64,000 nt of DNA from Lichenibacterium dinghuense. GTDB taxonomy: Bacteria > Pseudomonadota > Alphaproteobacteria > Rhizobiales > Beijerinckiaceae. The notes under the pieces were generated by a model. That model saw only the letters and a list, made by a program, of their open reading frames with translations, was not told the origin of the DNA and made no database searches. The stretch covers positions 1,612,501-1,676,500 of the forward strand of contig NZ_JAJLMN010000001.1 in assembly GCF_021730615.1 (NCBI RefSeq), given 5' to 3'. The first letter of the stretch is position 1, and each line of letters starts with the position of its first letter. This document shows positions 18,735 through 63,684 of the stretch, piece by piece. Both the position numbers and the translations under genes were made by a program.

Positions 18735-18953
18735 GCCGCACCGCCGGGGCGGTCACGCACTCTTCGAGCGGGGGGTTCGACCTGCACGGTCCCTCTTCCC
18801 CGCTTCGCCCGACCGTATCCACGCGTCTCGACGGCCGGCAGGTGTCCCCCCTTCTCCCCTCGCGGGAGAAGGGGGACGTGGTGGAGGGAGCAGACCGGGT
18901 GCGACCGTGCCTGTCCCGGAAGCCGTAGAGTCCCGGTCAGCGCGCGGAAAGGA
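18735..18953. repeat. Intergenic palindrome and dispersed repeat
   Basis: This spacer holds a perfect 12-bp hairpin at 18847-18875 (CCCCCTTCTCCC, 5-nt loop, and its complement) and, at 18893-18907, the 15-mer GACCGGGTGCGACCG. The same 15-mer recurs inverted at 23573-23587 and 44953-44967. The hairpin may also terminate the giant gene. The element type is a dispersed intergenic repeat common in rhizobial genomes. Confidence 0.7.
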
Positions 18954-51356: not shown

Positions 51357-51749
51357 TCAGCCTGCCCCGTCCGCCGGGATGAGGCTGACGTGGGCCGCGA
51401 CGATGCGCCAGCCTTCGGGGAACCGCGCCCAGCTCTGCATCTGGCGCCCGACGCGGTCGGGCGCGGAATCGCGCGTGAACAAGGTCGAGGCGGTGGCGAA
51501 GTCGGTGCCGAACGTCGTCACGACGGTGCGCTCCAGCGTCCGCGCCAGTCCGGCGGCCGGGCGGGCCGCCCGGAACGCCGCGATGGCGGCGTGGCCGTAG
51601 AGGTTCTCACCCGCGCCGTAGCGGATCGCCCGCGCGTCGCGCCAGAAGAAGGCGTCGAGCGCCGCGACGTCGTTGCCCACCAGCGCGGCCTCGTAGGCCG
51701 CGAAGGCCGCCTCGACCTCGGCGAGTGTGGCGGGGTGGTCGATCACCAT
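51357..51749 (-). CDS. hpxZ: HpxZ-like protein (DUF3225, SnoaL-like fold)
   Basis: A 130-residue NTF2/SnoaL-fold protein. The sequence contains AAFAAYEAALVGNDVAALDA, FFWRDARAIRYGAGENLYGH, LERTVVTTFGTDFATASTLF and WARFPEGWRIVAAHVS, the DUF3225 signature of HpxZ from the Klebsiella hpxWXYZ oxalurate operon. There, HpxX and HpxY are AtzG- and AtzE-like, and both counterparts occur at the far end of this cluster. The reaction of HpxZ is not established. ATG at 51749, with GGAG about 9 nt upstream. It is divergent from atzF with a 74-bp shared promoter region. Confidence 0.85.
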   Translation of the reverse strand: MVIDHPATLAEVEAAFAAYEAALVGNDVAALDAFFWRDARAIRYGAGENLYGHAAIAAFRAARPAAGLARTLERTVVTTFGTDFATASTLFTRDSAPDRVGRQMQSWARFPEGWRIVAAHVSLIPADGAG

Positions 51750-51771
51750 GGCGATGCTCCGGGAAGGCGGA

Positions 51772-51788
51772 CTGGCTCGCATGTTGCA
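51772..51788 (+). promoter_or_regulatory. Sigma-54 promoter upstream of atzF
   Basis: CTGGCTCG-CATG-TTGCA matches the sigma-54 consensus (YTGGCACG-N4-TTGCW) with a single mismatch. The GG (51774-51775) and GC (51786-51787) are exactly 10 nt apart, as required. Expected transcription start is near 51799, leaving a roughly 25-nt leader that contains the AGGAG of atzF. Fits NtrC-type nitrogen control. Confidence 0.7.
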
Positions 51789-51823
51789 GGCCAGCCGGCC
51801 CTGATGTCAGCAGGAGTCGTGCC

Positions 51824-53617
51824 GTGTCCCCGCCCTTGAACCGCAGCGCGCTCCACGCCGCCTACCGCGACGGCCTCGATCCCGCCCGCGTCGCGGAGGG
51901 GTGCCTCGCCGGGGCGGAGGCGCCGGAAGCGCGCGGCACATTCATCGCGCTCGCGCCGGAGGCGGCGCGCGCGGCCGTGGCGGCGCTCGGCCCCTTCGAC
52001 CCGGTCGCCAAGCCGCTCTGGGGCCTGCCCTTCGCGGTCAAGGACAACATCGACCTCGCCGGCCTGCCCACAACGGCGGCCTGCCCGGCCTTCGCCTCCA
52101 CGCCCGAGCGCTCCGCCACGGCGGTGGCGCGGCTCCTCGCGGCGGGTGCGGTCCCGGTCGGCAAGACCAACCTCGACCAGTTCGCCACCGGCCTCGTCGG
52201 CGTGCGGTCGCCCTATCCCCCGCCGCTGAACAGCTTCGACCCGGCGATCGTGCCGGGCGGCTCGTCGTCGGGCTCGGCCGTGGCGGTGGCGCGGGGCCTC
52301 GCCACCTTCGCGCTCGGCACCGACACGGCCGGCTCGGGCCGGGTGCCGGCGGGGCTGAACAACCTCGTCGGCCTGAAGCCGACGCTCGGCGCCGTGCCGG
52401 TGCGAGGGGTCGTCCCGGCCTGCCAGACGCTCGACTGCGTGTCGGTCTTCGCCCTCACGGTCGAGGACGCCTGGGCGGCGGCCTCTGCGATGGCCGGGTA
52501 CGACGCCGAGGATCCCTGGTCGAAGCGCGTGGCCCTTCGCGCGCCCGGCCCGGTGCCGCCGCGCCTGCGCGCCGGCGTGCCCGACGCCCGCAGCCGCCGC
52601 TTCTTCGGCGACGGGAACGCCGAGCGCGCCTTCGACCGGGCGCTGAAGCTCTACACCGGCCTCGGCATCGACCTCGTCGAGGTCGACTTCGCGCCGCTCT
52701 TCGCCGTCGCGGCCCTGCTCTACGAGGGCGCCTGGGTGGCGGAGCGCTACGCCGCGATCCGCCCCTTCATCGCGGCCCACCGCGACGCGCTGCACCCCAC
52801 CACGGCGCGGATCATCCTCGGCGCGGAATCGCTGTCGGCCGCCGACGCCTTCGCCGGGATCTACCGCCTCGCGGAGCTGCGCCGCGAGGCCGAGCCGCTG
52901 TGGGACGGGCTCGACCTGCTGGCCGTCCCCACCGTGCCGCGCGCCTACCGGGTGGCGGAGCTCGACGCGGACCCGATCGGCCCCAACGCGGCGCTCGGCA
53001 CCTACACCAACTTCGTCAACCTGCTCGACCTCTGCGCCCTCGCCGTGCCGGGGCCGTTCCGCGACGACGGCTTCCCGTCCGGCACCACGCTGGTCGCCCC
53101 CGCGGGCCGCGACGGCCTTCTCGCCGCGGTGGGCGCCGCGCTGCACCGCGCGGCCGGCGTGCCGATGGGCGCCACCGGGCACCCGCTGCCGCCCGGGCCC
53201 GCGGCGGCCGGCGCGGGCGGCGCGCCGGCCGGGGAGGTCGAGCTCGTGGTCATCGGTGCCCACCTGTCGGGCATGCCGCTCAACCGCGACCTCGTGGCGC
53301 TCGGCGGCACCTTCCGCCGCGCCGTCGACACGCGGCCGGAATACCGCCTCCACGCCCTGCCGGGCGGGCCGCCGGCCCGGCCCGGCCTGCTGCGCGTCGG
53401 CGATGGCGGGGGCGCGGTCGCGGCCGAGGTGTGGAGCCTGCCGCCGGACGGCTTCGGCCGGTTCGTCGACACGGTGCCGCCGCCGCTCTGCATCGGCCGC
53501 GTGCGGCTCGCCGACGGCACGGCGCCGGCGGGTTTCCTGTGCGAGCCGGCCGGCCTCGCGGGCGCGCGCGACATCACGCATCTCGGCGGCTGGCGGGCCT
53601 TCGTGGCCGGCGGGTGA
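51824..53617 (+). CDS. atzF: Allophanate hydrolase
   Basis: A 597-residue amidase that hydrolyses allophanate (urea-1-carboxylate) or the related dicarboxyurea to ammonia and CO2, the final step of cyanurate and biuret breakdown. The amidase-signature triad K73 (FAVKDN), S147 (VPGGSSSGS) and S171 (DTAGSGRVPAG) keeps the spacing of Pseudomonas AtzF. Residues about 475-597 form the C-terminal allophanate hydrolase domain (VVIGAHLSGMPLNRDL, GWRAFV) that acts on the decarboxylated intermediate. The start is the GTG at 51824, 7 nt after AGGAG; no ATG fits. First plus-strand gene of the cluster, behind a sigma-54 promoter. Confidence 0.93.
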   Translation: MSPPLNRSALHAAYRDGLDPARVAEGCLAGAEAPEARGTFIALAPEAARAAVAALGPFDPVAKPLWGLPFAVKDNIDLAGLPTTAACPAFASTPERSATAVARLLAAGAVPVGKTNLDQFATGLVGVRSPYPPPLNSFDPAIVPGGSSSGSAVAVARGLATFALGTDTAGSGRVPAGLNNLVGLKPTLGAVPVRGVVPACQTLDCVSVFALTVEDAWAAASAMAGYDAEDPWSKRVALRAPGPVPPRLRAGVPDARSRRFFGDGNAERAFDRALKLYTGLGIDLVEVDFAPLFAVAALLYEGAWVAERYAAIRPFIAAHRDALHPTTARIILGAESLSAADAFAGIYRLAELRREAEPLWDGLDLLAVPTVPRAYRVAELDADPIGPNAALGTYTNFVNLLDLCALAVPGPFRDDGFPSGTTLVAPAGRDGLLAAVGAALHRAAGVPMGATGHPLPPGPAAAGAGGAPAGEVELVVIGAHLSGMPLNRDLVALGGTFRRAVDTRPEYRLHALPGGPPARPGLLRVGDGGGAVAAEVWSLPPDGFGRFVDTVPPPLCIGRVRLADGTAPAGFLCEPAGLAGARDITHLGGWRAFVAGG

Positions 53618-53641
53618 GCGCCGGAGGGTTCTCCCCGCTCC

Positions 53642-53657
53642 TGGCATGATGAATGCA
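53642..53657 (+). promoter_or_regulatory. Possible second sigma-54 promoter
   Basis: CTGGCATG-ATGA-ATGCA has GG and GC exactly 10 nt apart and two mismatches to the sigma-54 consensus. It lies 35 nt before the importer gene start at 53692. Weaker than the site before atzF. Confidence 0.45.
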
Positions 53658-53691
53658 ATGCAGGCCGGAGACGACCCTTCCGGAGCCCTCG

Positions 53692-54795
53692 ATGACGATC
53701 GCCCTCGACCGCCGACGCTTTCTGCAGAGTTCGGGCGCCGCCGCGCTCGCGGCCGGCCTGTTCCCGCGCGCGGCCGTCGCGGCGGACCCGCTCACGATCG
53801 GCGTGATCTACGTCGGCGCCCGCGACGACTTCGGCTGGAACCAGGCCCATGCCGTGGGGGTGAAGGCGCTGAAGGCGCTGCCCGACGTCAAGGTGGTCGA
53901 GGAGGAGAACGTCCCCGAGACGGACGCCGTGTCGAAGACCATGGAATCCATGATCAACCTCGACGGCGCGAAGCTGATCCTGCCGACCTCGTTCGGCTAC
54001 TGGTCGCCCTTCGTGCTCGACGAGGCCAAGGCCAACGCCGACGTGCAGTTCCGCCACGCGGCGCCGCTGTGGAAGCCGTCGGACCCGACGAACGCGGGCT
54101 CCTACTGGCCCTTCCTGGATCAGGCCCACTACATCGACGGCGTCGCGGCGGGCCTCGCCTCGAAGAGCGGCAAGCTCGGCTTCGTGGCGGCCAAGCCCGT
54201 CGGCATCGTGCTGCGCAACATCAACTCCTTCCTGACGGGCGCCCGCACCACCAATCCTAACGCCACCGTCCAGGTGATCTTCACCGGCGACTGGTCGCTG
54301 CCGGTGCGCGAGGCCGAGGCCACCAACGCCCTCGTGGACGCCGGCTGCGACCTCATCACCTGCCACGTCGACGGGCCCAAGGTGGTGATCCAGACCGCGG
54401 AATCGCGCGGCGTGAAGTGCTGCGGCCACAACGCCGACCAGTCGTCGCTGGCCCCGAAGGGCTTCGTGACCGGCGCTGAATATAAATGGGGCACGATCTA
54501 CACCGGATATGCCGGTTTGATCGGCAAGGGCCAGCCGTTGCCGAATTTCACGTTCGGCGGCTACGACAAGGACATGGTCCAGAACTCGCCCTACGGCGCC
54601 GGCGCCACGGAGCCGGCCCGCAAGGCCGCCGACGCCGCGATCGCCAAGCTGAAGGCGGGTGCCCCGATCTTCGCCACCGCCATCAAGGACAACAACGGCC
54701 GCATCGTCGTGGCGAGCGTGCCGCCCGACAACTACGCCGACGTGTTCAACAAGATGGACTACCTCGTCGACGGCGTGATCGGCTCGACGCATTGA
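53692..54795 (+). CDS. BMP-family ABC transporter substrate-binding protein, Tat-type signal
   Basis: A 367-residue periplasmic binding protein (PF02608, PnrA/BMP type). The N-terminus DRRRFLQSSGAAALAAGLF has the twin-arginine RRxFL pattern with cleavage near AVA-ADP, so export may be through Tat. The mature part shows IGVIYVGARDDFGWNQAHA, EEENVPETDAVSKTMESMI, the YWPFLDQAHYIDGVAAGLAS block, and GHNADQSSLAPKG near the ligand site, all family features. BMP proteins bind nucleosides or similar planar N-compounds; here cyanurate, biuret or a related heterocycle is inferred from the neighbouring hydrolases. ATG at 53692, with GGAG 7 nt upstream. Confidence 0.92.
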   Translation: MTIALDRRRFLQSSGAAALAAGLFPRAAVAADPLTIGVIYVGARDDFGWNQAHAVGVKALKALPDVKVVEEENVPETDAVSKTMESMINLDGAKLILPTSFGYWSPFVLDEAKANADVQFRHAAPLWKPSDPTNAGSYWPFLDQAHYIDGVAAGLASKSGKLGFVAAKPVGIVLRNINSFLTGARTTNPNATVQVIFTGDWSLPVREAEATNALVDAGCDLITCHVDGPKVVIQTAESRGVKCCGHNADQSSLAPKGFVTGAEYKWGTIYTGYAGLIGKGQPLPNFTFGGYDKDMVQNSPYGAGATEPARKAADAAIAKLKAGAPIFATAIKDNNGRIVVASVPPDNYADVFNKMDYLVDGVIGSTH

Positions 54796-54804
54796 CGCAG
54801 CTTT

Positions 54805-54827
54805 CCTTCTCCCCTCGCGGGAGAAGG
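54805..54827. repeat. CTTCTCCC/GGGAGAAG palindrome
   Basis: Nine-bp perfect arms (CCTTCTCCC and complement) around CTCGC, 10 nt after the binding-protein stop. Same family as the palindromes at 18847, 61298 and 61403; may attenuate or stabilise the mRNA between binding protein and permease. Confidence 0.7.
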
Positions 54828-54869
54828 GTGCGTGCGACGGAGGAAGACTTCCATGAGCAGGGTCGAACG

Positions 54870-56000
54870 ATGACGGACGCGGTCGGCACGGCGGCGCATC
54901 TCACGGCGGCCCCCGCGCGGCGGGGCTCGGCGGCGGCGCTGCGGCTGCGCGCCGCCTCGGAATACGTCATCATCCCCGTCCTCGCGGTCGTGGCCGCCTC
55001 GCTGATCTTCGCGCTCTTCCTCCTGGCGCTCGGCAAGTCCCCCGCGGCCTTCCTCGACCTCCTGTGGATCGGCGGCTTCGGCTCGGCCTTCTCCTGGGGC
55101 AACACGCTGAGCCGCGCGGCGCCGCTGATCCTGACCGCGCTGACGGTCGCGATCCCGGCCCAGCTCGGCCTCACGATCATCGGGGGCGAGGGCGCGCTGG
55201 TGCTCGGCGGCTTCGCGGCCGCCGCCCTCGCGGTGCCCTTCGTGGGCTCCGGCGCGCCCGCCGCCGCGGTGCTGCCCCTGATGGCGCTGGCCGCCATGGC
55301 GGCCGGGGCCTCCTGGATCGGCCTCGCCGGCCTCCTCCGCTTGAAGCGCGGCGTCAACGAGACGATCTCGTCGCTCCTCCTGTCCTACGTCGCCATCGCG
55401 GTCACGCTGTTCTTCGTGGAGGGGCCGCTGCGCGACCCGGCCTCGACCGCCAAGGCCTCGACGCTGCCGATCGGCGCCGCCTACGCGGTGGGCAAGATGC
55501 CCTTCCTCAACGTGCACTGGGGCTTCGCGGCCGGCGTGGTCGTGGCGGCGCTCCTCGGCGTGCTGATGTCGCGCACGACCTTCGGCTTCGCGGCCCGCAT
55601 CACCGGCGGCAACATCCGCGCCGCCCAGGCGCAGGGGCTGCCGGTCGGCAAGCTCATGCTCGCCTGCTGCGCCCTCGCCGGCGCCGCGGCGGGCCTCGCC
55701 GGCTTCTTCGAGGTCGCGGCCGTGCAGGGCCGGGCGAACGCGTCGCTGGCGGCCGGCTACGGCTTCACCGGCATCCTCGTGTCGTTCCTGGCGCGCCACA
55801 ACCCGTTCGCGATCCCCCCCGTGGCGGTGCTGTTCGGCGGGCTCGCGGCGGCGGGCGGCCTCGTGCAGCGCCGCATGGGCCTGCCCGACGCCACCGTGCT
55901 GGTGCTGCAGGGCTTCATCTTCGTGGTGCTGCTCGCCTCCGAGACGCTCTACGGCCGCTTCTCGGTGTTCCGGATCTCGGGCCGGCAGGGGCGGGCATGA
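54870..56000 (+). CDS. ABC transporter permease 1 (BMP/nucleoside type)
   Basis: A 376-residue inner-membrane permease of the BPD_transp_2 family, with about 9-10 helices beginning at residue 30. Motifs include LGLTIIGGEGALVLGGFAAA and NETISSLLLSYVAIAV in the middle loop region, typical of the YufP-like subunit. The ATG at 54870 is chosen because upstream residues in the same frame are shadow sequence. Its stop overlaps the start of the second permease as ATGA, so the two are coupled and probably form a heterodimer served by the ATPase at 59721. Confidence 0.92.
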   Translation: MTDAVGTAAHLTAAPARRGSAAALRLRAASEYVIIPVLAVVAASLIFALFLLALGKSPAAFLDLLWIGGFGSAFSWGNTLSRAAPLILTALTVAIPAQLGLTIIGGEGALVLGGFAAAALAVPFVGSGAPAAAVLPLMALAAMAAGASWIGLAGLLRLKRGVNETISSLLLSYVAIAVTLFFVEGPLRDPASTAKASTLPIGAAYAVGKMPFLNVHWGFAAGVVVAALLGVLMSRTTFGFAARITGGNIRAAQAQGLPVGKLMLACCALAGAAAGLAGFFEVAAVQGRANASLAAGYGFTGILVSFLARHNPFAIPPVAVLFGGLAAAGGLVQRRMGLPDATVLVLQGFIFVVLLASETLYGRFSVFRISGRQGRA

Positions 56001-56914
56001 GCGCGCCGCTCGCCATCGTGCTCACCGCCATGCTGGGCGGGGCCATCCGGGTGTCGACGCCCTTCATCTTCGTGGCGCTCGGCGAAACGCTCACGGAGAA
56101 GTCGGGCCGCATCAACCTCGGCCTCGAAGGCACGCTCGTGCTCGGCGCCATGCTGGGCTACGCGACCGCCTACGAGACGGGCTCGCCCTGGCTGGGCGTG
56201 CTGGCCGGCGGCATGGCCGGCGTGCTGCTCGGCGCGCTTCACGGCGTGCTGTGCTCGCTGCCGCGCGTCAACGACATCGCGGTCGGCATCGCCCTGATGA
56301 CGCTCGGCACCGGCCTCGCCTTCTTCTTCGGCAAGCCCTTCATCCAGCCCGAGGCGCCGCATCTCCCCTCCGTGCCGCTCGCCGACTGGACGGGCGACCA
56401 CGCCCTCGCCGAGGCGCTGCGCGTCAACCCGCTGTTCTTCGTCGGCATCGCGGCGGCGCTCGTCATAGCCTGGGGGTTCCGCAACACGCGGGTCGGCCTC
56501 GTGGTCCGCACCACCGGCGACAGCGCCGCGGCGGCGCTCGCCATGGGCATCCCGGTCGACCGCGTCCGCGTGCTCGCGACCGCGGCGGGGGGATTCCTCG
56601 CCGGCGTCGGCGGCTCGTTTCTGTCGCTGTCCTACCCGGGCTCCTGGAACGAGGGGCTCTCGTCGGGCCAGGGCCTGATGGCGGTGGCGCTCGTCATCTT
56701 CGCGCGCTGGAGCCCCGTCCGCTGCGTCGGCGCGGCGCTGCTGTTCGGCGCCGCGGGCGCGCTCGGGCCGGCGCTGCAGTCGGTCGGCGTCACGCAGGGC
56801 TACTACCTGTTCAACGCCGCCCCCTACGTCCTGACGCTGCTCATCATGGTGGGCTCGTCGGGCTCCGTCGACGCGCACCGGGCCGCGCCCGGCGAGCTGT
56901 CGATCACGCGATGA
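55997..56914 (+). CDS. ABC transporter permease 2 (BMP/nucleoside type)
   Basis: A 305-residue permease, the YufQ-like partner. It has about 8-9 helices, with the diagnostic ALGETLTEKSGRINLGLEGTLV near residue 28 and VNDIAVGIALMTLGTGLAFF. Starts four bases inside the end of permease 1. The next gene, formamidase, begins 19 nt after its stop, so importer and enzymes share a transcript. Confidence 0.93.
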   Translation: MSAPLAIVLTAMLGGAIRVSTPFIFVALGETLTEKSGRINLGLEGTLVLGAMLGYATAYETGSPWLGVLAGGMAGVLLGALHGVLCSLPRVNDIAVGIALMTLGTGLAFFFGKPFIQPEAPHLPSVPLADWTGDHALAEALRVNPLFFVGIAAALVIAWGFRNTRVGLVVRTTGDSAAAALAMGIPVDRVRVLATAAGGFLAGVGGSFLSLSYPGSWNEGLSSGQGLMAVALVIFARWSPVRCVGAALLFGAAGALGPALQSVGVTQGYYLFNAAPYVLTLLIMVGSSGSVDAHRAAPGELSITR

Positions 56915-56933
56915 AACCCGGACAGGATCCAAG

Positions 56934-57953
56934 ATGAACGGACTCGGCGGCCTCAACCGCAGCACCAACGGCGTCGTGATCGGCCTCGTGCAGCTCCAGC
57001 TGCCCACCGTGGCGACGCCGGCGGAGCTCGCCGCGCAGACGGACCGCATCGTCGGCATGGTCGCCAAGGCGCGGGCCAACATGCCCACGATGGACCTCGT
57101 GGTCTTCCCCGAATACGCCCTGCACGGCCTGTCGATGAACACCGACCCGGCCATCATGTGCCGGATGGACGGCCCGGAGGTCGCGGCCTTCAGCGCGGCC
57201 TGCGCGGAGCACCGCATCTGGGGCTGCTTCTCCATCATGGAGTTCAACCCGCACGGCAACCCCTACAACGTCGGCCTCGTCATCGACGACGCCGGCGCGG
57301 TGCAGCTGTACTATCGCAAGATGCACCCCTGGGTGCCGGTCGAGCCCTGGGAGCCGGGGGACGGCGGCATTCCCGTGATCGACGGGCCGAACGGCTGCAG
57401 GCTCGGCCTCATCATCTGCCACGACGGCATGTTCCCCGAGATGGCGCGCGAATGCGCCTACAAGGGCGCCGAGGTGATGCTGCGCACGGCCGGCTACACG
57501 GCGCCGATGCGCGACGCCTGGCGCTTCACCAACCAGTCGAACAGCTTCTGCAACCTCATGGTCACGGCCAGCGTGTGCATGTCGGGCTCGGACGGCACCT
57601 TCGACTCGATGGGCGAGGGCATGGTCTGCAACTTCGACGGCTCGGTCATCGCCCACGGCACGAGCGGCCGGCCGGACGAGATCATCACCGCGGAGGTCAG
57701 GCCCGACCTCGTGCGCGAGGCCCGCGCGGTGTGGGGGCCGGAGAACAACATCTACCAGCTCGGCCACCGCGGCTTCTCGGCCGTGCGCGGCGGCGCGGGC
57801 GACTGCCCCTACACCTACATGACCGACCTCGCGGCCGGCCTCTACCGCCTGCCCTGGGAAAGCAGCGTGCAGGTCACGGACGGCACCTCCTGCGGCCTCC
57901 CCGCCCCGACGCGCCGCTACGGCGAATCCGACATCAGGGAGGCCGCCGAATGA
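56934..57953 (+). CDS. amiF: Formamidase (nitrilase superfamily, AmiF-like)
   Basis: A 339-residue nitrilase-fold amidase. The catalytic triad is E60 ([10 protein letters not shown]), K129 (YYRKMHPW) and C162 ([10 protein letters not shown]). The spacing and surrounding blocks ([31 protein letters not shown]) match Helicobacter AmiF, which hydrolyses formamide to formate and ammonia. In this cluster the substrate could be formamide or another small amide released alongside ring-opened compounds; that is inference. The last codons overlap the biuret hydrolase start as ATGA. Confidence 0.9.
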
Positions 57954-58627
57954 GCGCGGTCGCGGCCGAACCCTACCCCTGGCCCTACGACGGGGACCTG
58001 CGCCCCGCCAACACGGCGCTGGTGATCATCGACATGCAGGTCGATTTCTGCGGCGTCGGCGGCTACGTCGACCGCATGGGCTACGACCTGTCGCTCACCC
58101 GCGCGCCGGTCGAGCCGATCCGCCGCGTGCTCGCCGCCATGCGGGCCGGCGGCTACGCGGTGATCCACACGCGCGAGGGGCACCGGCCGGACCTCTCCGA
58201 CCTGCCGGACAACAAGCGCTGGCGCTCGCGCCGCATCGGCGCCGGCATCGGCGACGACGGCCCCTGCGGGCGCGTGCTGGTGCGGGGCGAGCCCGGCTGG
58301 GAGATCATCCCGGAGCTCGCGCCGCTGCCCGGCGAGGTGGTGATCGACAAGCCCGGCAAGGGCTCGTTCTGCGCGACCGACCTCGAGCTGATCCTGCGCA
58401 CGCGGGGCATCCGCAACCTCGTGCTCACCGGCATCACCACGGACGTCTGCGTGTCGACCACCATGCGCGAGGCCAACGATCGCGGCTTCGAATGCGTGGT
58501 GCTCGGCGACTGCTGCGGCGCGACGGACCGCTCGAACCACGACGCGGCGCTGCGCATGGTGACGATGCAGGGCGGGGTGTTCGGCGCCGTGTCGAGCGCG
58601 GACGCGCTGCTGGCGGGGCTGCGCTGA
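57950..58627 (+). CDS. biuH: Biuret amidohydrolase
   Basis: A 225-residue isochorismatase-fold cysteine hydrolase that converts biuret to allophanate and ammonia. The catalytic residues D28 (VIIDMQVDF), K134 (IDKPGKGSF) and C167 ([17 protein letters not shown]) have the same spacing as in the characterised Rhizobium leguminosarum enzyme. The wider sequence (DPYPWPY-like start [50 protein letters not shown]) is also very close to it. Starts by overlap with amiF and ends overlapping the ring-opening hydrolase (TGATG). Its product feeds AtzF. Confidence 0.95.
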
Positions 58628-59724
58628 TGCCGCGCCGCCGCGCCTTCGTGCACCGGATCTCGACCGGGGCGCCCGACGACGCCTCGGGCCTGGAGCGCGC
58701 CTTCGCCGACGGCCGCATCGACGCCGGCTCGGTCGTGGCGATCCTCGGCAAGACGGAGGGCAACGGCCTCGTCAACGATTGGACGCGGGCGCTCGCGGCG
58801 CGCGCGCTGCGCGACGCCCTCGCGCGGCACGCTGGCCCCGAGGTCGCCGACGAGGCCTGCCTCGTCATGTCGGGCGGCACCGAGGGCGGCCTCGCGCCCC
58901 ACGTCACCGTGTTCGAGGTGCGGCCCGACGACGGGCCGGAGCGGGCCGGCGCCCTCGCCATCGGCCGCGCGCGCACGGCCGACCTTCCCCCGGAGCACCT
59001 CGGCCGGCAGGCCCAGGTCAGGGCCGTCGCCGGGGCGGTCGAAGCCGCGATGCGCGACGCCGGCATCCCCGACCCCGACGACGTCCACTTCGTCCAGGTG
59101 AAATGCCCGCTGCTGACGGGCGAGCGGATCGCGGAAGCGCGCGGGCGCGGCCAGCACTGCGCCACCTCCGACACGCTGAAGTCCATGGGCCTGTCGCGCG
59201 CCGCGGCGTCGCTCGGCGTCGCGGCCGCGCTCGGCGAGGTGGAGCACGTGCCCGAGGCGGCGATCGGGCGCGACTTCGCGGCCTTCTCGACCCGCGCCTC
59301 CGCCTCGGCCGGCGTCGAGCTCGCCGGGCACGAGGTGGTGGTGATGGGCCGCGGCCGGGGCTGGTCGGGCCCCCTGCGGATCGACCACGCCGTCATGGCC
59401 GACGGGCTCGACGTCGAGCCCGTGCGCGCCGCCCTGGCGCGGCTCGGCCTGCCCGCGGCGGGCCGGCCCGCCCCGGCGCGCCTCGTCGCGCTGCTCGCCA
59501 AGGCCGAGGCGCCGTCGGGCGGCCGGCTCCGCGGCTTCCGCCACACGATGCTGACCGACTCCGACCTGTCGGCCACGCGCCATGCCCGCGCCTTCGCGGC
59601 CGGCGCGCTGGGGAGCCTCGTCGGCCACGCGGAGATCTACGTCTCGGGCGGCGCCGAGCATCAGGGGCCCGACGGGGGCGGCCCCGTGGCGGTCATCGCC
59701 GAAGAAGCCGGAGAACGCGCATGA
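58627..59724 (+). CDS. atzD: Cyanuric acid hydrolase / barbiturase family ring-opening amidohydrolase
   Basis: A 365-residue toblerone-fold enzyme with three internal repeats, each giving one Lys-Ser dyad: K42 (LGKTEGNG)-S82 (MSGGTEGG), K159 (VQVKCPLLT)-S227 (SASAGVEL) and K292 (LAKAEAPSG)-S340 (YVSGGAEHQGPDGGGP). These positions coincide almost exactly with Pseudomonas AtzD. It opens the s-triazine ring of cyanuric acid to 1-carboxybiuret. Barbiturase is in the same family and cannot be excluded from sequence alone, but the flanking biuret, AtzEG and AtzF genes favour cyanuric acid. Start overlaps biuH; stop overlaps the ATPase start (ATGA). Confidence 0.9.
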   Translation: MPRRRAFVHRISTGAPDDASGLERAFADGRIDAGSVVAILGKTEGNGLVNDWTRALAARALRDALARHAGPEVADEACLVMSGGTEGGLAPHVTVFEVRPDDGPERAGALAIGRARTADLPPEHLGRQAQVRAVAGAVEAAMRDAGIPDPDDVHFVQVKCPLLTGERIAEARGRGQHCATSDTLKSMGLSRAAASLGVAAALGEVEHVPEAAIGRDFAAFSTRASASAGVELAGHEVVVMGRGRGWSGPLRIDHAVMADGLDVEPVRAALARLGLPAAGRPAPARLVALLAKAEAPSGGRLRGFRHTMLTDSDLSATRHARAFAAGALGSLVGHAEIYVSGGAEHQGPDGGGPVAVIAEEAGERA

Positions 59725-61262
59725 GGGGTCCCGCCGTCGCCGCGACGCCCCGCCCCGGTGCCGTCTCGGTCTCCACCGTCGGCATGACGAAGCGCTTCGG
59801 CGGCTTCACGGCCCTCGACGGCGTGTCGATCGACGTGCCGGCCGGCGCCTTCCACGTGCTGCTCGGCGAGAACGGCGCCGGCAAGTCCACCCTCGTCAAA
59901 TGCATCATGGGCTTCTACCAGCCCGACGCCGGCTCGCTGCTCGTCGACGGGAAGCCCGCCGCCGTGCGCAACCCGCGCGACGCGCGGGCGCTCGGTATCG
60001 GCATGGTGTACCAGCACTTCACGCTGGTGCCGTCGCTGACCGGCGCCGAGAACCTCGTCATCTCCCGCGCCGACGCGCCGGCCGTGATCGACTGGCGGCG
60101 CGAGCGCGAGCGCCTCGCGGCCTTCACCGAACGCATGCCCTTCCGCGTGCCGCTCGACCGCCCGGTGGCGAGCCTCGCCGCGGGCGAGAAGCAGAAGCTG
60201 GAGATCCTCAAGCTCCTCTACCTCGACGGCCGCTTCCTGATCCTCGATGAGCCCACCTCCGTGCTCACGCCCGGCGAAGCCGACGAGATCCTCGGCCTGC
60301 TGCGCGGCATGACGGAGCGGGGCGAGCTGTCCGTGCTGATGATCAGCCACAAGTTCCGCGAGGTGACGGCCTTCGCCGACGCCGTGTCGGTGCTGCGGCG
60401 CGGCGCGTTGGCGGGCGGCGGCCGCGTCGCCGAGTTGACCACGGACGGCATGGCGCGGCTGATGATCGGCGACACGGCCGTGCGCGAGCGCGGGGCCCGC
60501 GCCGCCGTGAAGGACGCCGGCGTGGTGCTCGACCTCGCCGGCCTCGTGGCAGACGACGACGCGGGCCGCACCGCGGTCGACGGCGTGAGCCTCAAGGTCA
60601 GGGCCGGCGAGATCGTCGGCATCGCGGGCGTGTCGGGCAACGGGCAGGCCGCGCTGGTCGAGGTGCTGAACGGCCAGCGCAGCTTGCGCGACGGCCGCAT
60701 CTTCATCCGCGAGGAGCCCTTCGAGCCGGTGCGGCGCGACTTCGACCGGTTCCGCGTCTTCGGCCTGCCCGAGGAGCCGCTGAAGAACGCCGCCGTGCCG
60801 CGCATGAGCGTGGCCGAGAACATCGCCTTCCGGGCCTTCGACAAGCCGCCCGCGGCCAAGTTCGGCTGGTGGCTGTCGCCGAGCCCGATCCGGGCGCGGG
60901 CGGCCGACCTCGTCGCGCGCTACGGCGTCAAGACCGCCTCGCTCGACGCGCCCATCTCCACCCTGTCGGGCGGCAACGTGCAGCGCGCCGTGCTGGCGCG
61001 CGAGCTGTCCGGCGAGGTCGACGTGCTGGTCGTCGCCAACCCCTGCTTCGGGCTCGACTTCGCGTCCGTGGCCGAGATCCGCGGCCAGATCATGGACCAG
61101 CGCAACCGCGGCGCGGCGGTGCTGCTCGTGTCCGAGGACCTCGACGAGATCCTGGAGCTCGCCGACCGCGTCGCCGTCATGTCGGAAGGGCACATCGCCT
61201 ATTCGGCGCCCGTCGACGAGACCGACCGGACGACGATCGGCCGGCACATGGCGGGGCATTGA
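59721..61262 (+). CDS. ABC transporter ATP-binding protein (tandem NBD, BMP/nucleoside type)
   Basis: A 513-residue cytoplasmic ATPase with two fused nucleotide-binding domains, as in YufO-type nucleoside importers. NBD1 is canonical: GENGAGKST (about residue 50), signature SLAAGEKQK and Walker [13 protein letters not shown]2 is degenerate: GVSGNGQAA in place of a classic Walker A, signature LSGGNVQR, and Walker B-like [13 protein letters not shown] without the catalytic Glu. Asymmetry is usual in this family. It would drive the two permeases encoded at 54870-56914, and is separated from them by the three enzyme genes. Confidence 0.93.
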
Positions 61263-61297
61263 TGGAAGACCTGCATCGTCACGGAGCGGCATGCGCG

Positions 61298-61426
61298 CCC
61301 CTTCTCCCGTTCACGGGAGAAGGGGCCCCCACGCAGTGGGGGCGGATGAGGGGATGGGGGGCGGTGCCGTCTCCCCTCATCCGACCGGGCTTTGCCCGGC
61401 CACCTTCTCCCGCACGCGGGAGAAGG
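61298..61426. repeat. Composite intergenic palindromic repeat (four hairpins)
   Basis: Within the 172-bp spacer between the ATPase and second hydrolase there are four perfect hairpins: 61298-61325 (12-bp stem, CTTCTCCC type), 61326-61342 (CCCCCAC/GTGGGGG), 61385-61399 (CCGGGC-TTT-GCCCGG) and 61403-61426 (11-bp stem, CTTCTCCC type). The right arm of the last supplies AGAAGGA 8-9 nt before the next ATG. This element type is widespread between genes in rhizobia. Confidence 0.85.
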
Positions 61427-61434
61427 ACAGCCCC

Positions 61435-62097
61435 ATGATCTCCGTCCCCGCCGACCCCTACCCCTACCCGCTCGACCCCGACCACGTGGCGCTCGTCGTC
61501 ATCGACATGCAGCGCGACTTCGTCGAGCCCGGCGGCTTCGGCGCGGCGCTCGGCAACGACGTGACGCGCCTCCAGTCGGCGATCCCCGCCGTGGCGGAGC
61601 TGATCGCGCTGTTCCGCGCGAAGCGCTGGCCGGTGGTCCACACCCGCGAATGCCACGCGCCCGACCTCGGCGACCTCCCGCCGTCGAAGCGCGGGCGCGG
61701 GCGCGGCGCCGCGCGCATCGGCGACCCCGGCCCGATGGGCCGCATCCTGGTGCGGGGCGAGCCGGGCGCCGAGATCGTGGCCGACTGCGCGCCCCTGCCC
61801 GGCGAGCCCGTGGTCGACAAGCCCGGCAAGGGCATGTTCCACGCGACGGGCGTCGAGGCGATGCTGCGGGGCCTCGGCGTCACGCACCTCGTCTTCGCCG
61901 GCGTCACCACCGAGGTCTGCGTCCAGACCTCGATGCGCGAGGCCAACGACCGCGGCTTCGAGTGCCTGGTCGTCTCCGACGCGACCGAGAGCTACTTCCC
62001 CGACTTCAAGGCCGCGACGCTGCGCATGATCGCGGCGCAGGACGGCATCGTCGGCTGGGTGGCCCCGCTCGCGGCCTTGCGGGAGGCTCTGGCGTGA
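61435..62097 (+). CDS. Isochorismatase-fold cysteine hydrolase, biuret-hydrolase paralogue
   Basis: A 220-residue hydrolase related to the biuret hydrolase upstream, with catalytic D24 (VVIDMQRDF), K129 (VDKPGKGMF) and C162 ([17 protein letters not shown]). Shared blocks are [28 protein letters not shown] and [11 protein letters not shown], but it lacks the [12 protein letters not shown] segment of BiuH. A ureido or amide substrate in the same pathway is likely; ureidoacrylate-type or carboxybiuret-type activity cannot be told apart here. The ATG at 61435 uses a ribosome site contributed by the palindromic repeat. Stop overlaps the AtzG-like GTG start (GTGA). Confidence 0.88.
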
Positions 62098-62297
62098 CGG
62101 CCCCGGCCTTCGACCCCGAGGCCGTGATCGACGCGATGGCGCCGCTGCTCGGCCTCGCGGTCGCGCCCGAGCACCGCGCCGGGATCGCCGCGAACCTGCG
62201 CGCCCTCGCCGCCATGGCGGCCCTGGTGCTCGACCCGCCGGTCGGCGACCACGCCGAGCCGGCGCCCGTCTTCACGCCGGTGATCCCCCATGGCTGA
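62094..62297 (+). CDS. atzG: AtzG-like small subunit (DUF4089)
   Basis: A 67-residue helical protein ([37 protein letters not shown], then AEPAPVF) of the DUF4089 family. AtzG of Pseudomonas is 68 residues and forms a heterotetramer with AtzE like GatC with GatA, stabilising the 1-carboxybiuret hydrolase. The GTG start overlaps the preceding stop by 4 nt, and the 3' end overlaps the atzE start by 8 nt, so the stoichiometric pair is translationally coupled. Confidence 0.9.
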
Positions 62298-63684
62298 TCT
62301 CGGCGCCCTGTCGGCGGCCGCGATCGCCCGCGGGGTGGCGGCGGGGTCCCTGCCCGCCGAGGCCGTCGCGCGGGCGGCGCTGGGTCGCATCGCGGCCCAC
62401 GACGGGCGCGTCGGCGCCTTCACGCATGTCGCGACGGAGCGCGCCCTGGCGACGGCGCGGGCGCTCGACGCGGCGCGGGCCGCGGGCCACCTGCTCGGCC
62501 CCCTGGCGGGCGTGCCCTTCGCGGTGAAGAACCTGTTCGACCTCGCGGGCGTGCCCACCCTCGCGGGCTCCAGGATCGAGCGCGACGCGGCGCCGGCGGG
62601 GCGCGACGCCGCCCTGGTCGAGCGGATGGAGGCGGCGGGCGCCGTGTGCCTCGGGGCGCTCAACATGGGCGAATACGCCTACGACTTCACGGGCGAGAAC
62701 GCCCACGACGGCCCGTCCCGCAACCCGCACGACCTCGGCCGCATGTCGGGCGGCTCGTCCGGCGGCTCGGCGGCCGCGGTGGCGGCGGGCTTCGTGCCGC
62801 TGGCCCTGGGCTCGGACACCAACGGCTCGATCCGGGTGCCGTCGTCGCTCTGCGGGACCTTCGGGCTGAAGCCCACCTACGGGCGGCTCGGCCGCGCCCG
62901 CACCTTCCCGTTCGTGGCGAGCCTCGACCACCTCGGCCCCTTCGCCCGCTCGGCCGAGGACCTCGCGCTCTGCTACGACGCCCTGCAGGGGCCCGACCCC
63001 GACGACGCGGGTTGCGCGAACCGCGCCGCCGAGCCGACCCTGGGTCTCCTGGAGCGGGGGGCCGCCGGCCTGCGCGTCGCCGTGGCGGGCGGCTATTTCG
63101 CGGCCGACGACGTGCCGGACGCCCGCGACGCGGTGGCGCGCTGCGCCGCCGCCCTCGGCGCGACCCGACGCGTGGAGCTGCCCGGCGCCGCGCGCGCCCG
63201 CGCGGCGGCCTTCCTCGTCACCGCCACCGAGGGCGCCGCCCTGCACCTCGACCGCCTGCGGGCGCGCGCGCAGGACTTCGACCCCGCGGTGCGCGACCGC
63301 CTGCTGGCCGGCGCCATGGTGCCGGCCGCCTGGGTGGCGCAGGCCCAGAAGGCCCGCCGCCGCTTCGCCGAGGAGGCGGCCCGCGCCTTCGACGGCGTGG
63401 ACATCATCCTCGCGCCCGCGACGCCCTCGCGCGCGCCGCGCCTCGGGCAGGCGACCATGAGGGTCGGCGCGCTGGACCTGCCGGTGCGGGCCAACCTCGG
63501 CCTCTACACCCAGCCGATCTCCTGCATCGGGCTGCCCGTGGCGGCCGTGCCGGTCTGGCTCGACGGCGGCCTGCCGATCGGCGTCCAGGTCATCGCGCCG
63601 CCCTGGCGCGAGGACCTCGCCCTCCGGGTCGCGGCGGCGCTGGAGGCGGCGGGCGTGGCGCGGGCGCCGGTGGCGCCGCTCTGA
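62290..63684 (+). CDS. atzE: 1-carboxybiuret hydrolase catalytic subunit (AtzE family amidohydrolase)
   Basis: A 464-residue amidase-signature enzyme. The triad is K80 (FAVKNLFD), S156 (MSGGSSGGS) and S180 (SDTNGSIRVPS). AHDGRVGAFTHV, LGALNMGEYAYDFTGENAH and LGLYTQPISCIGLP are typical of the AtzE/HpxY subgroup. It removes an amide from 1-carboxybiuret to give 1,3-dicarboxyurea, which AtzF then degrades. The close relative HpxY is the alternative identity, but the neighbours atzD, biuH and atzF favour AtzE. Last gene of the run; only weak dyads follow its stop. Confidence 0.92.
   Translation: MADLGALSAAAIARGVAAGSLPAEAVARAALGRIAAHDGRVGAFTHVATERALATARALDAARAAGHLLGPLAGVPFAVKNLFDLAGVPTLAGSRIERDAAPAGRDAALVERMEAAGAVCLGALNMGEYAYDFTGENAHDGPSRNPHDLGRMSGGSSGGSAAAVAAGFVPLALGSDTNGSIRVPSSLCGTFGLKPTYGRLGRARTFPFVASLDHLGPFARSAEDLALCYDALQGPDPDDAGCANRAAEPTLGLLERGAAGLRVAVAGGYFAADDVPDARDAVARCAAALGATRRVELPGAARARAAAFLVTATEGAALHLDRLRARAQDFDPAVRDRLLAGAMVPAAWVAQAQKARRRFAEEAARAFDGVDIILAPATPSRAPRLGQATMRVGALDLPVRANLGLYTQPISCIGLPVAAVPVWLDGGLPIGVQVIAPPWREDLALRVAAALEAAGVARAPVAPL

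Follow-up and report, generated by a model that had tools for sequence, protein, structure and literature searches.

A putative nitrogen-limitation operon for open-chain ureides in Lichenibacterium dinghuense, with AtzD as an optional entry for cyanuric acid

Triuret and biuret are fertilizer impurities and oxidation products of uric acid. Work on operons that combine TrtA, BiuH and AtzF describes the breakdown of triuret through carboxybiuret and allophanate to ammonia (PMC7948467). The cyanuric acid operon of pADP-1 stands beside the gene of a BMP-type binding protein, AtzT, which binds guanine with a dissociation constant of 0.11 µM and cyanuric acid with one of 340 µM (PMC6834077). Clusters of AtzG, AtzE and AtzH are probably older than the cyanuric acid operon, and their genomic context gave little hint of their function (PMC6219798). 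Here, we analyzed a locus of twelve genes at 51357-63684 of a 64,000-nucleotide stretch of the Lichenibacterium dinghuense genome (contig NZ_JAJLMN010000001.1, positions 1,612,501 to 1,676,500; hereafter the window). Eleven genes are on the plus strand, in the order AtzF, BMP-type binding protein, two permeases, formamidase, BiuH, AtzD, ATPase, TrtA, AtzG and AtzE, while the AtzH-like gene is on the minus strand and diverges from them. According to our in silico analysis, this is likely a nitrogen-limitation operon for open-chain ureides, in which the ATP-binding cassette (ABC) importer would serve triuret and/or biuret and AtzD would be an optional entry for cyanuric acid.

One line of evidence is the company that the importer keeps. 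We collected from named genomes 79 loci encoding a close relative of the window's binding protein (59-88% identity over the best segment) and annotated them with the window proteins; 53 of them have at least 9 kb on either side of the binding-protein gene and are called well-flanked below. BiuH is present in 52 of these 53 loci, TrtA and the ATPase in 51 each, AtzH in 39, AtzE in 36, formamidase in 29, AtzF in 26 and AtzD in 16, which leaves 37 without AtzD. AtzE occurs in 21 of those 37. We also searched a class-wide sample of 385 alphaproteobacterial genomes for the AtzD family and for BiuH. The AtzD family was matched in 22 genomes, and the 28 matches other than the window's own correspond to 26 regions (seven of them shorter than 19 kb, bounded by contig ends or by the length retrieved), none of which contains the importer's binding protein or permeases. 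By contrast, these were found at 26 of the 30 BiuH places other than the window's own (at least 73% identity), with TrtA nearby at 20 of the 26 and not nearby at the other six. The comparison of 26/30 with 0/26 indicates that the importer tracks BiuH (and usually TrtA) rather than AtzD.

In L119 and L127, two AtzD-family loci, the BMP-type importer is another one, with 31-32% identity to AtzT and 23-24% to the window protein; a 2-oxoglutarate-Fe(II) dioxygenase is encoded there too. L127 adds a nucleoside hydrolase, AtzE and AtzH, and L119 has two copies of AtzD together with a LysR regulator. These loci possibly represent a separate pathway.

The binding protein (53692..54795, plus strand; Pfam Bmp, 100 bits) has the BMP fold nearest to AtzT and 3s99, both by fold and by sequence. 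Its AlphaFold2 model has a mean predicted local distance difference test score of 86, and the best Foldseek matches are 6pii, 6pi5 and 3s99. We mapped the nine positions of the AtzT guanine pocket (PMC6834077) onto 106 operon binding proteins. Ser97, Phe98, Asn169 and Trp194 of AtzT are conserved, and Asn218 and Asn220 are replaced by His and Asp in all 106 proteins, as in the Brucella protein 3s99. The position of Glu165 is occupied by Ser (44), Thr (31), Gln (20), Leu (6), Ile (4) or Met (1) and by Glu in none of the 106; the window protein has Ile172. At three pocket positions, AtzD-bearing loci show a subset of the residues found in the others, and across the nine positions no residue is restricted to them. 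The same genome encodes a separate BMP protein (L190), 50% identical to AtzT, that retains the purine-binding Glu165, so the operon's protein is not the only candidate purine binder of the genome. A third BMP protein, L189, is less similar to AtzT.

From these co-occurrences we infer triuret and/or biuret as the importer's ligand. Several observations weigh against this assignment. The 79 loci were picked by likeness to the window's binding protein and are hence a biased set. In one AtzD region (G093), the TrtA and ATPase of such an operon lie about 8 kb from AtzD. Among the four BiuH places without the importer, L170 is cut by a contig end and L150, L165 and L166 are real misses. With six of the 26 importer-bearing BiuH places devoid of a nearby TrtA, co-occurrence cannot tell biuret from triuret. 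Finally, Tyr/Gln/Gln at three pocket positions sets apart a far clade of roughly 20 loci, none of which carries AtzD; a Trp/His/Ser-Thr-Ile pocket could be required before cyanurate can be taken up. This last pattern, the position of AtzD within the operon of the importer (flanked by BiuH and the ATPase in the window and in 16 relatives), and the binding, though weak, of cyanuric acid by AtzT, the nearest solved structure, are what one would expect of an importer mainly for cyanuric acid, with triuret and biuret entering otherwise. We consider this unlikely, given the 37 of 53 well-flanked importer loci that lack AtzD and the 26 other AtzD regions, none of which has this importer's binding protein or permeases. 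The initial annotation had proposed a dedicated cyanurate importer, and this proposal did not hold up, since the importer goes with BiuH and TrtA irrespective of AtzD and its pocket has no residue specific to AtzD-bearing loci.

The main rival to the triuret/biuret assignment is an importer that accepts various small planar ureides and imides (triuret, biuret, cyanurate and perhaps others), a range that would have made the addition of AtzD possible. AtzD joined an existing operon without an AtzD-specific change at the nine pocket positions, and the residue at the AtzT Glu165 position is variable, both of which suit such a range. However, five of the nine positions are invariant in the 106 proteins, and a sixth and seventh are nearly so, only within clades; this invariance suggests that the ligand range may be narrow, and we regard a broad importer as possible but somewhat doubtful. 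It is improbable, in our judgment, that an ordinary purine or nucleoside importer sits in the cluster by chance. The protein does belong to the Pfam Bmp family, its nearest solved structures hold guanine or adenine, and with His225 and Asp227 it matches the Brucella protein 3s99, but the absence of Glu at the Glu165 position, the other purine-type protein of the genome and the tie of the importer genes to BiuH at 26 of 30 places all speak against this reading.

The enzymes of the operon were assigned by family models, solved structures and diagnostic residues. AtzD (58627..59724, plus strand) scores 513 bits with the NCBIfam model CyanAcHdlAtzD (cut-off 360) and is 62% identical to the Azorhizobium enzyme (220 of 356 aligned columns); it is the single AtzD-family gene of the host genome (6.1 Mb in five contigs). 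It has the three Ser-Lys pairs Lys42/Ser82, Lys159/Ser227 and Lys292/Ser340 as well as Arg54, Arg191 and Arg321. All 22 AtzD and 17 BiuH positions compared carry the expected residue with one exception, in AtzD, which has Ala228 where 4nq3 has Ser227, a residue that works through its backbone. Arg191 occupies the position of Azorhizobium Arg188, where Arg or Gln tells cyanuric acid hydrolase from barbiturase (PMC4051656). On these sequence features, we class the ring-opening enzyme as a genuine cyanuric acid hydrolase, and the AtzD-family protein with intact catalytic residues of the initial annotation is thereby confirmed. A barbiturase in a locus serving pyrimidine breakdown would share the Pfam family PF09663, but the model score, the match to 4nq3 (418 bits, versus 258 for the barbiturase 5hwe) and the Arg at the place of the barbiturase Gln make it highly improbable, and we dropped it. 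In nine other AtzD-family proteins (L129-L137), Asn stands at the Arg188 position and most also have Lys at the position of Arg314; by its residues, this subgroup is neither a typical cyanuric acid hydrolase nor, under the published Gln rule, a barbiturase.

BiuH (57950..58627, plus strand) passes the NCBIfam BiuH equivalog (425 bits, cut-off 370), matches 6azo with 403 bits and has the Asp-Lys-Cys triad with Gln215, Tyr47, Tyr53, Asp173 and Val218. The product of 61435..62097 (plus strand) had been described as a second isochorismatase-fold hydrolase. The gene and the fold are right, but its identity was overlooked, and with it the input of triuret. Its best solved relative is 6xix, the Herbaspirillum TrtA (287 bits, versus 207-218 for BiuH structures), and it stays below the NCBIfam BiuH cut-off (246 versus 370 bits). 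When compared with the diagnostic residues published for TrtA and BiuH (PMC7948467), it has the catalytic triad and all of Phe35, Asn41, Glu160, Tyr187, Gln202 and Ile205, while BiuH has the published BiuH residue at five of the same six positions and Ser instead of Thr at position 187. One residue counts against the assignment: position 134 is Met and departs from the consensus Ala. This is not decisive, because an A134S variant of TrtA was neutral and retained activity (PMC7948467). On the strength of these matches, the protein is a predicted triuret hydrolase, TrtA.

The AtzH-like protein (51357..51782, minus strand, likely start 51749) has an NTF2 fold and is by homology a 1,3-dicarboxyurea decarboxylase (Pfam AtzH-like, 190 bits; AtzH 6bjt, 132 bits). 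It keeps nine of the nine published AtzH pocket residues (Tyr22, Arg46, Arg63, Arg66, Arg73, Phe94, Arg96, Gln106 and Gln108; PMC6219798). It also passes the NCBI HpxZ model (192 versus 135 bits), which means that the HpxZ name covers AtzH-like proteins. The earlier label HpxZ thus named a gene that is present and passes that model, but AtzH-like is the better name in view of the pocket and the Pfam score. The AtzG-like small subunit (62094..62297, plus strand, GTG start) reaches 56.5 bits with Pfam AtzG-like (cut-off 24) and falls far below NCBIfam HpxX (20.3 versus 70 bits). Its gene overlaps by 8 bp that of its partner AtzE, the predicted 1-carboxybiuret hydrolase (62290..63684, plus strand; NCBIfam AtzE, 701 versus 461 bits). 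An oxalurate (HpxXYZ) reading was dropped, as AtzG fails HpxX and the neighbors are TrtA, BiuH and AtzF; the issue is one of naming only. The same context favors carboxybiuret over an oxamate-type Hpx compound as the putative substrate of AtzEG. AtzF, the allophanate hydrolase (51836..53617, plus strand, with a TTG start or a GTG start at 51824), scores 758 bits with NCBIfam allophanate_hyd (cut-off 511) and has both domains, Pfam Amidase (269 bits) and AH_C (155 bits), so that the AtzE and AtzF families previously named are both verified. What we take to be Ser-cisSer-Lys motifs are visible in the AtzE and AtzF translations. No match above cut-off to a urea carboxylase partner for AtzF was found in the genome, and two urease-alpha matches lie elsewhere in it. 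Formamidase (56934..57953, plus strand) is of the AmiF type (NCBIfam formamidase, 545 versus 406 bits; 5g3o and 2dyu), and its gene is found between permease and biuH in 35 of the 79 importer loci.

From the gene identities and diagnostic residues we infer the substrates in vivo and the flow through two branches. The BMP-type ABC importer would take up triuret and/or biuret, possibly also related planar ureides. TrtA would convert triuret to carboxybiuret, and AtzD would produce the same carboxybiuret from cyanuric acid. In one branch, AtzEG would deaminate carboxybiuret to 1,3-dicarboxyurea, which AtzH would decarboxylate to allophanate; in the other, carboxybiuret would decay spontaneously to biuret, and BiuH would convert it to allophanate. 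AtzF would then release ammonia and CO2. AtzD would be an optional entry, placed between BiuH and the ATPase in an operon that mostly does without it. The locus encodes the BiuH-AtzF branch as well as the AtzEG-AtzH-AtzF one, in agreement with the earlier view that the two routes are encoded together, and this, along with the AtzD residues, supports a nitrogen-scavenging locus.

To describe how carboxybiuret may be handled, we counted genes in 82 TrtA loci with at least 2 kb of sequence downstream. AtzE is present in 39 and a cupin gene after TrtA in 12, and no locus has both. AtzE occurs in 15 of the 16 AtzD-bearing loci versus 24 of the 66 others. Exclusion between cupin and AtzE gave a Fisher p of 0.002 when an earlier selection comprising 71 loci was tested, uncorrected for kinship, and the screen used two queries like the Rhizobium leguminosarum cupin, so that unlike cupins would escape it. 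In L186 and L187 (Rhizobium and Agrobacterium plasmids), trtA and the cupin gene that follows it overlap. The cupin after trtA could be TrtB, the carboxybiuret decarboxylase. Where the operon has AtzE, 32 of 33 AtzH proteins retain Arg66; where it does not, 16 of 17 have Gln, Ala or Ser instead, a pattern that rests on two to four independent changes, too few to reach significance. As a lead, AtzH-like proteins may specialize by residue 66 and, where AtzE is lacking, may act on the monocarboxylate carboxybiuret and not on dicarboxyurea. The Arg66 pattern is relevant because AtzG-AtzE-AtzH clusters probably pre-date the cyanuric acid operon and their context had told little about what they do (PMC6219798), whereas the context without AtzD is here that of triuret breakdown.

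We followed the history of AtzD on a tree of 92 operons built with FastTree. Seventeen operons have AtzD between BiuH and the ATPase, 74 lack it there and one was not scored. The presence of AtzD requires at least eight changes on the tree, and the label is clustered, since none of 500 shuffles gave a count as low. A group of 19 AtzD proteins (support 96/89) unites 18 from importer operons, that of the window among them, with one outsider, and monophyly of the 18 was not rejected (approximately unbiased test, p 0.306). One acquisition followed by repeated loss and transfer of the inserted state both fit, the counts not separating gain from loss. We tentatively suggest that the operon represents a distinct BMP importer branch for open-chain ureides, in which AtzGE-AtzH served triuret before cyanurate and AtzD was plugged in late.

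Upstream of atzF, at 51773..51788 (plus strand), we found the site TGGCTCG-CATG-TTGCA, which has 11 of the 12 bases of what we take to be the sigma-54 -24/-12 consensus. A second, weaker site (10 of 12 bases) precedes the binding-protein gene at 53642..53657 (plus strand), and the relative L030 has a site with 11 of 12 bases at the same place. Within the window alone, the number of such hits is at chance level (7 versus 7.55 expected). Across loci, however, 83 of 104 have a site with at least 10 of 12 bases within the 200 bp upstream of the first operon gene, whereas simulated sequence gives 1.2 and the reverse strand 2. A search for sigma-70 promoters found none. Transcription of the operon is probably sigma-54 dependent, and the conserved sites support a role in nitrogen scavenging. 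The cyanuric acid operons of pADP-1 are reported to be sigma-54 dependent and induced by nitrogen starvation (PMC6834077).

Apart from the importer genes, all genes are long family matches above curated cut-offs. The binding protein, permeases and ATPase match known transporter models but remain below the NCBIfam equivalog cut-offs: permease 1 (54870..56000) has 156 bits with ABC_B6_perm_2 (cut-off 400), permease 2 (55997..56914) 142 bits with ABC_B6_perm_1 (cut-off 465), and the ATPase (59721..61262), which has two ATP-binding domains, 418 bits with ABC_ATP_B6 (cut-off 670), all on the plus strand. AtzF, the binding protein, both permeases, formamidase, BiuH, AtzD, the ATPase, AtzG and AtzE have intact reading frames where the initial annotation had placed them. 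Its description of genes mostly joined by overlaps of 4-8 bp is true in part: six of the ten plus-strand junctions overlap, by 1-8 bp, while the other four are gaps of 19, 74, 74 and 172 bp. Between the ATPase gene and trtA, at 61300-61426, lies a palindromic element (CCTTCTCCCG ... CGGGAGAAGG). The pattern of its 24-base core is found at 14 places of the genome with at most two mismatches and at none in the backward control, and 18-base matches to the element also occur at 54809-54826 and 18854-18871.

Each enzyme of the locus is of a known kind, and the interest is in their combination and in what it implies for the importer. The suggestion of a new substrate for the BMP class stands insofar as no BMP-type importer with cyanurate as its main substrate was found in the open-licence PubMed Central (PMC) literature, but its novelty was overstated, because AtzT, encoded beside the pADP-1 operon, was measured with cyanuric acid and because bmpA-nupABC beside biuH/trtA is published. 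In the same open-licence literature, we found no importer assigned to biuret or triuret. The locus supplies a concrete candidate for one, and its binding protein is amenable to purification and testing; if the assignment is true, open-chain ureides would be a substrate class not yet assigned to BMP proteins in the literature searched. It also offers an answer to the question, raised in PMC6219798, of what AtzG-AtzE-AtzH did before the cyanuric acid operon: in the 21 of 37 well-flanked loci that have AtzE and lack AtzD, carboxybiuret would derive from triuret.

The nearest named relative, Lichenibacterium ramalinae RmlP001 (L030), carries the same 12 genes, their order and orientation unchanged, at 76-92% identity, with no gene-level difference found. 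The plasmid of R. leguminosarum WSM1689 (RLEG3_RS31645 to RS31605) has the binding protein, permeases, formamidase, BiuH, AtzD, ATPase and TrtA in the same order, but the gene after TrtA encodes a cupin, in place of the AtzG and AtzE of the window, and neither AtzF nor AtzH is listed in the 18.6 kb covered. On the Enterobacter hormaechei plasmid pENT-576 (L185), AtzF, the importer, formamidase, BiuH, ATPase, TrtA and a GntR regulator stand between IS1 transposases, without AtzD. Near-identical TrtA matches, 63.9% to the window, are present on several Enterobacterales plasmids, and complete E. coli genomes gave no close match to the Enterobacter-type operon. The pADP-1 system, atzDGEHF with atzRSTUVW, shares with the window AtzD, AtzG, AtzE, AtzH, AtzF and a nearby BMP-type binding protein (PMC6219798, PMC6834077). 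Compared with pADP-1 as the accessible parts of these papers present it, order and strand differ, the window has BiuH and TrtA but no LysR regulator in the operon, and AtzT is 32% identical to the window's binding protein and retains the purine-binding Glu165. In ammonia oxidizers, biuH/trtA/atzF lie beside bmpA-nupABC, an importer of the same class as in the window, which is called a nucleoside transporter; trtB or oxalurate genes replace AtzGE/AtzH, and AtzD is not described in the accessible part of that report (PMC12625717). The operon described from Herbaspirillum sp. BH-1 and R. leguminosarum keeps TrtA, BiuH and AtzF together, as does the window (PMC7948467). To that set, as far as the accessible part of the paper describes it, the window adds AtzGE, AtzH, AtzD, formamidase and the importer.

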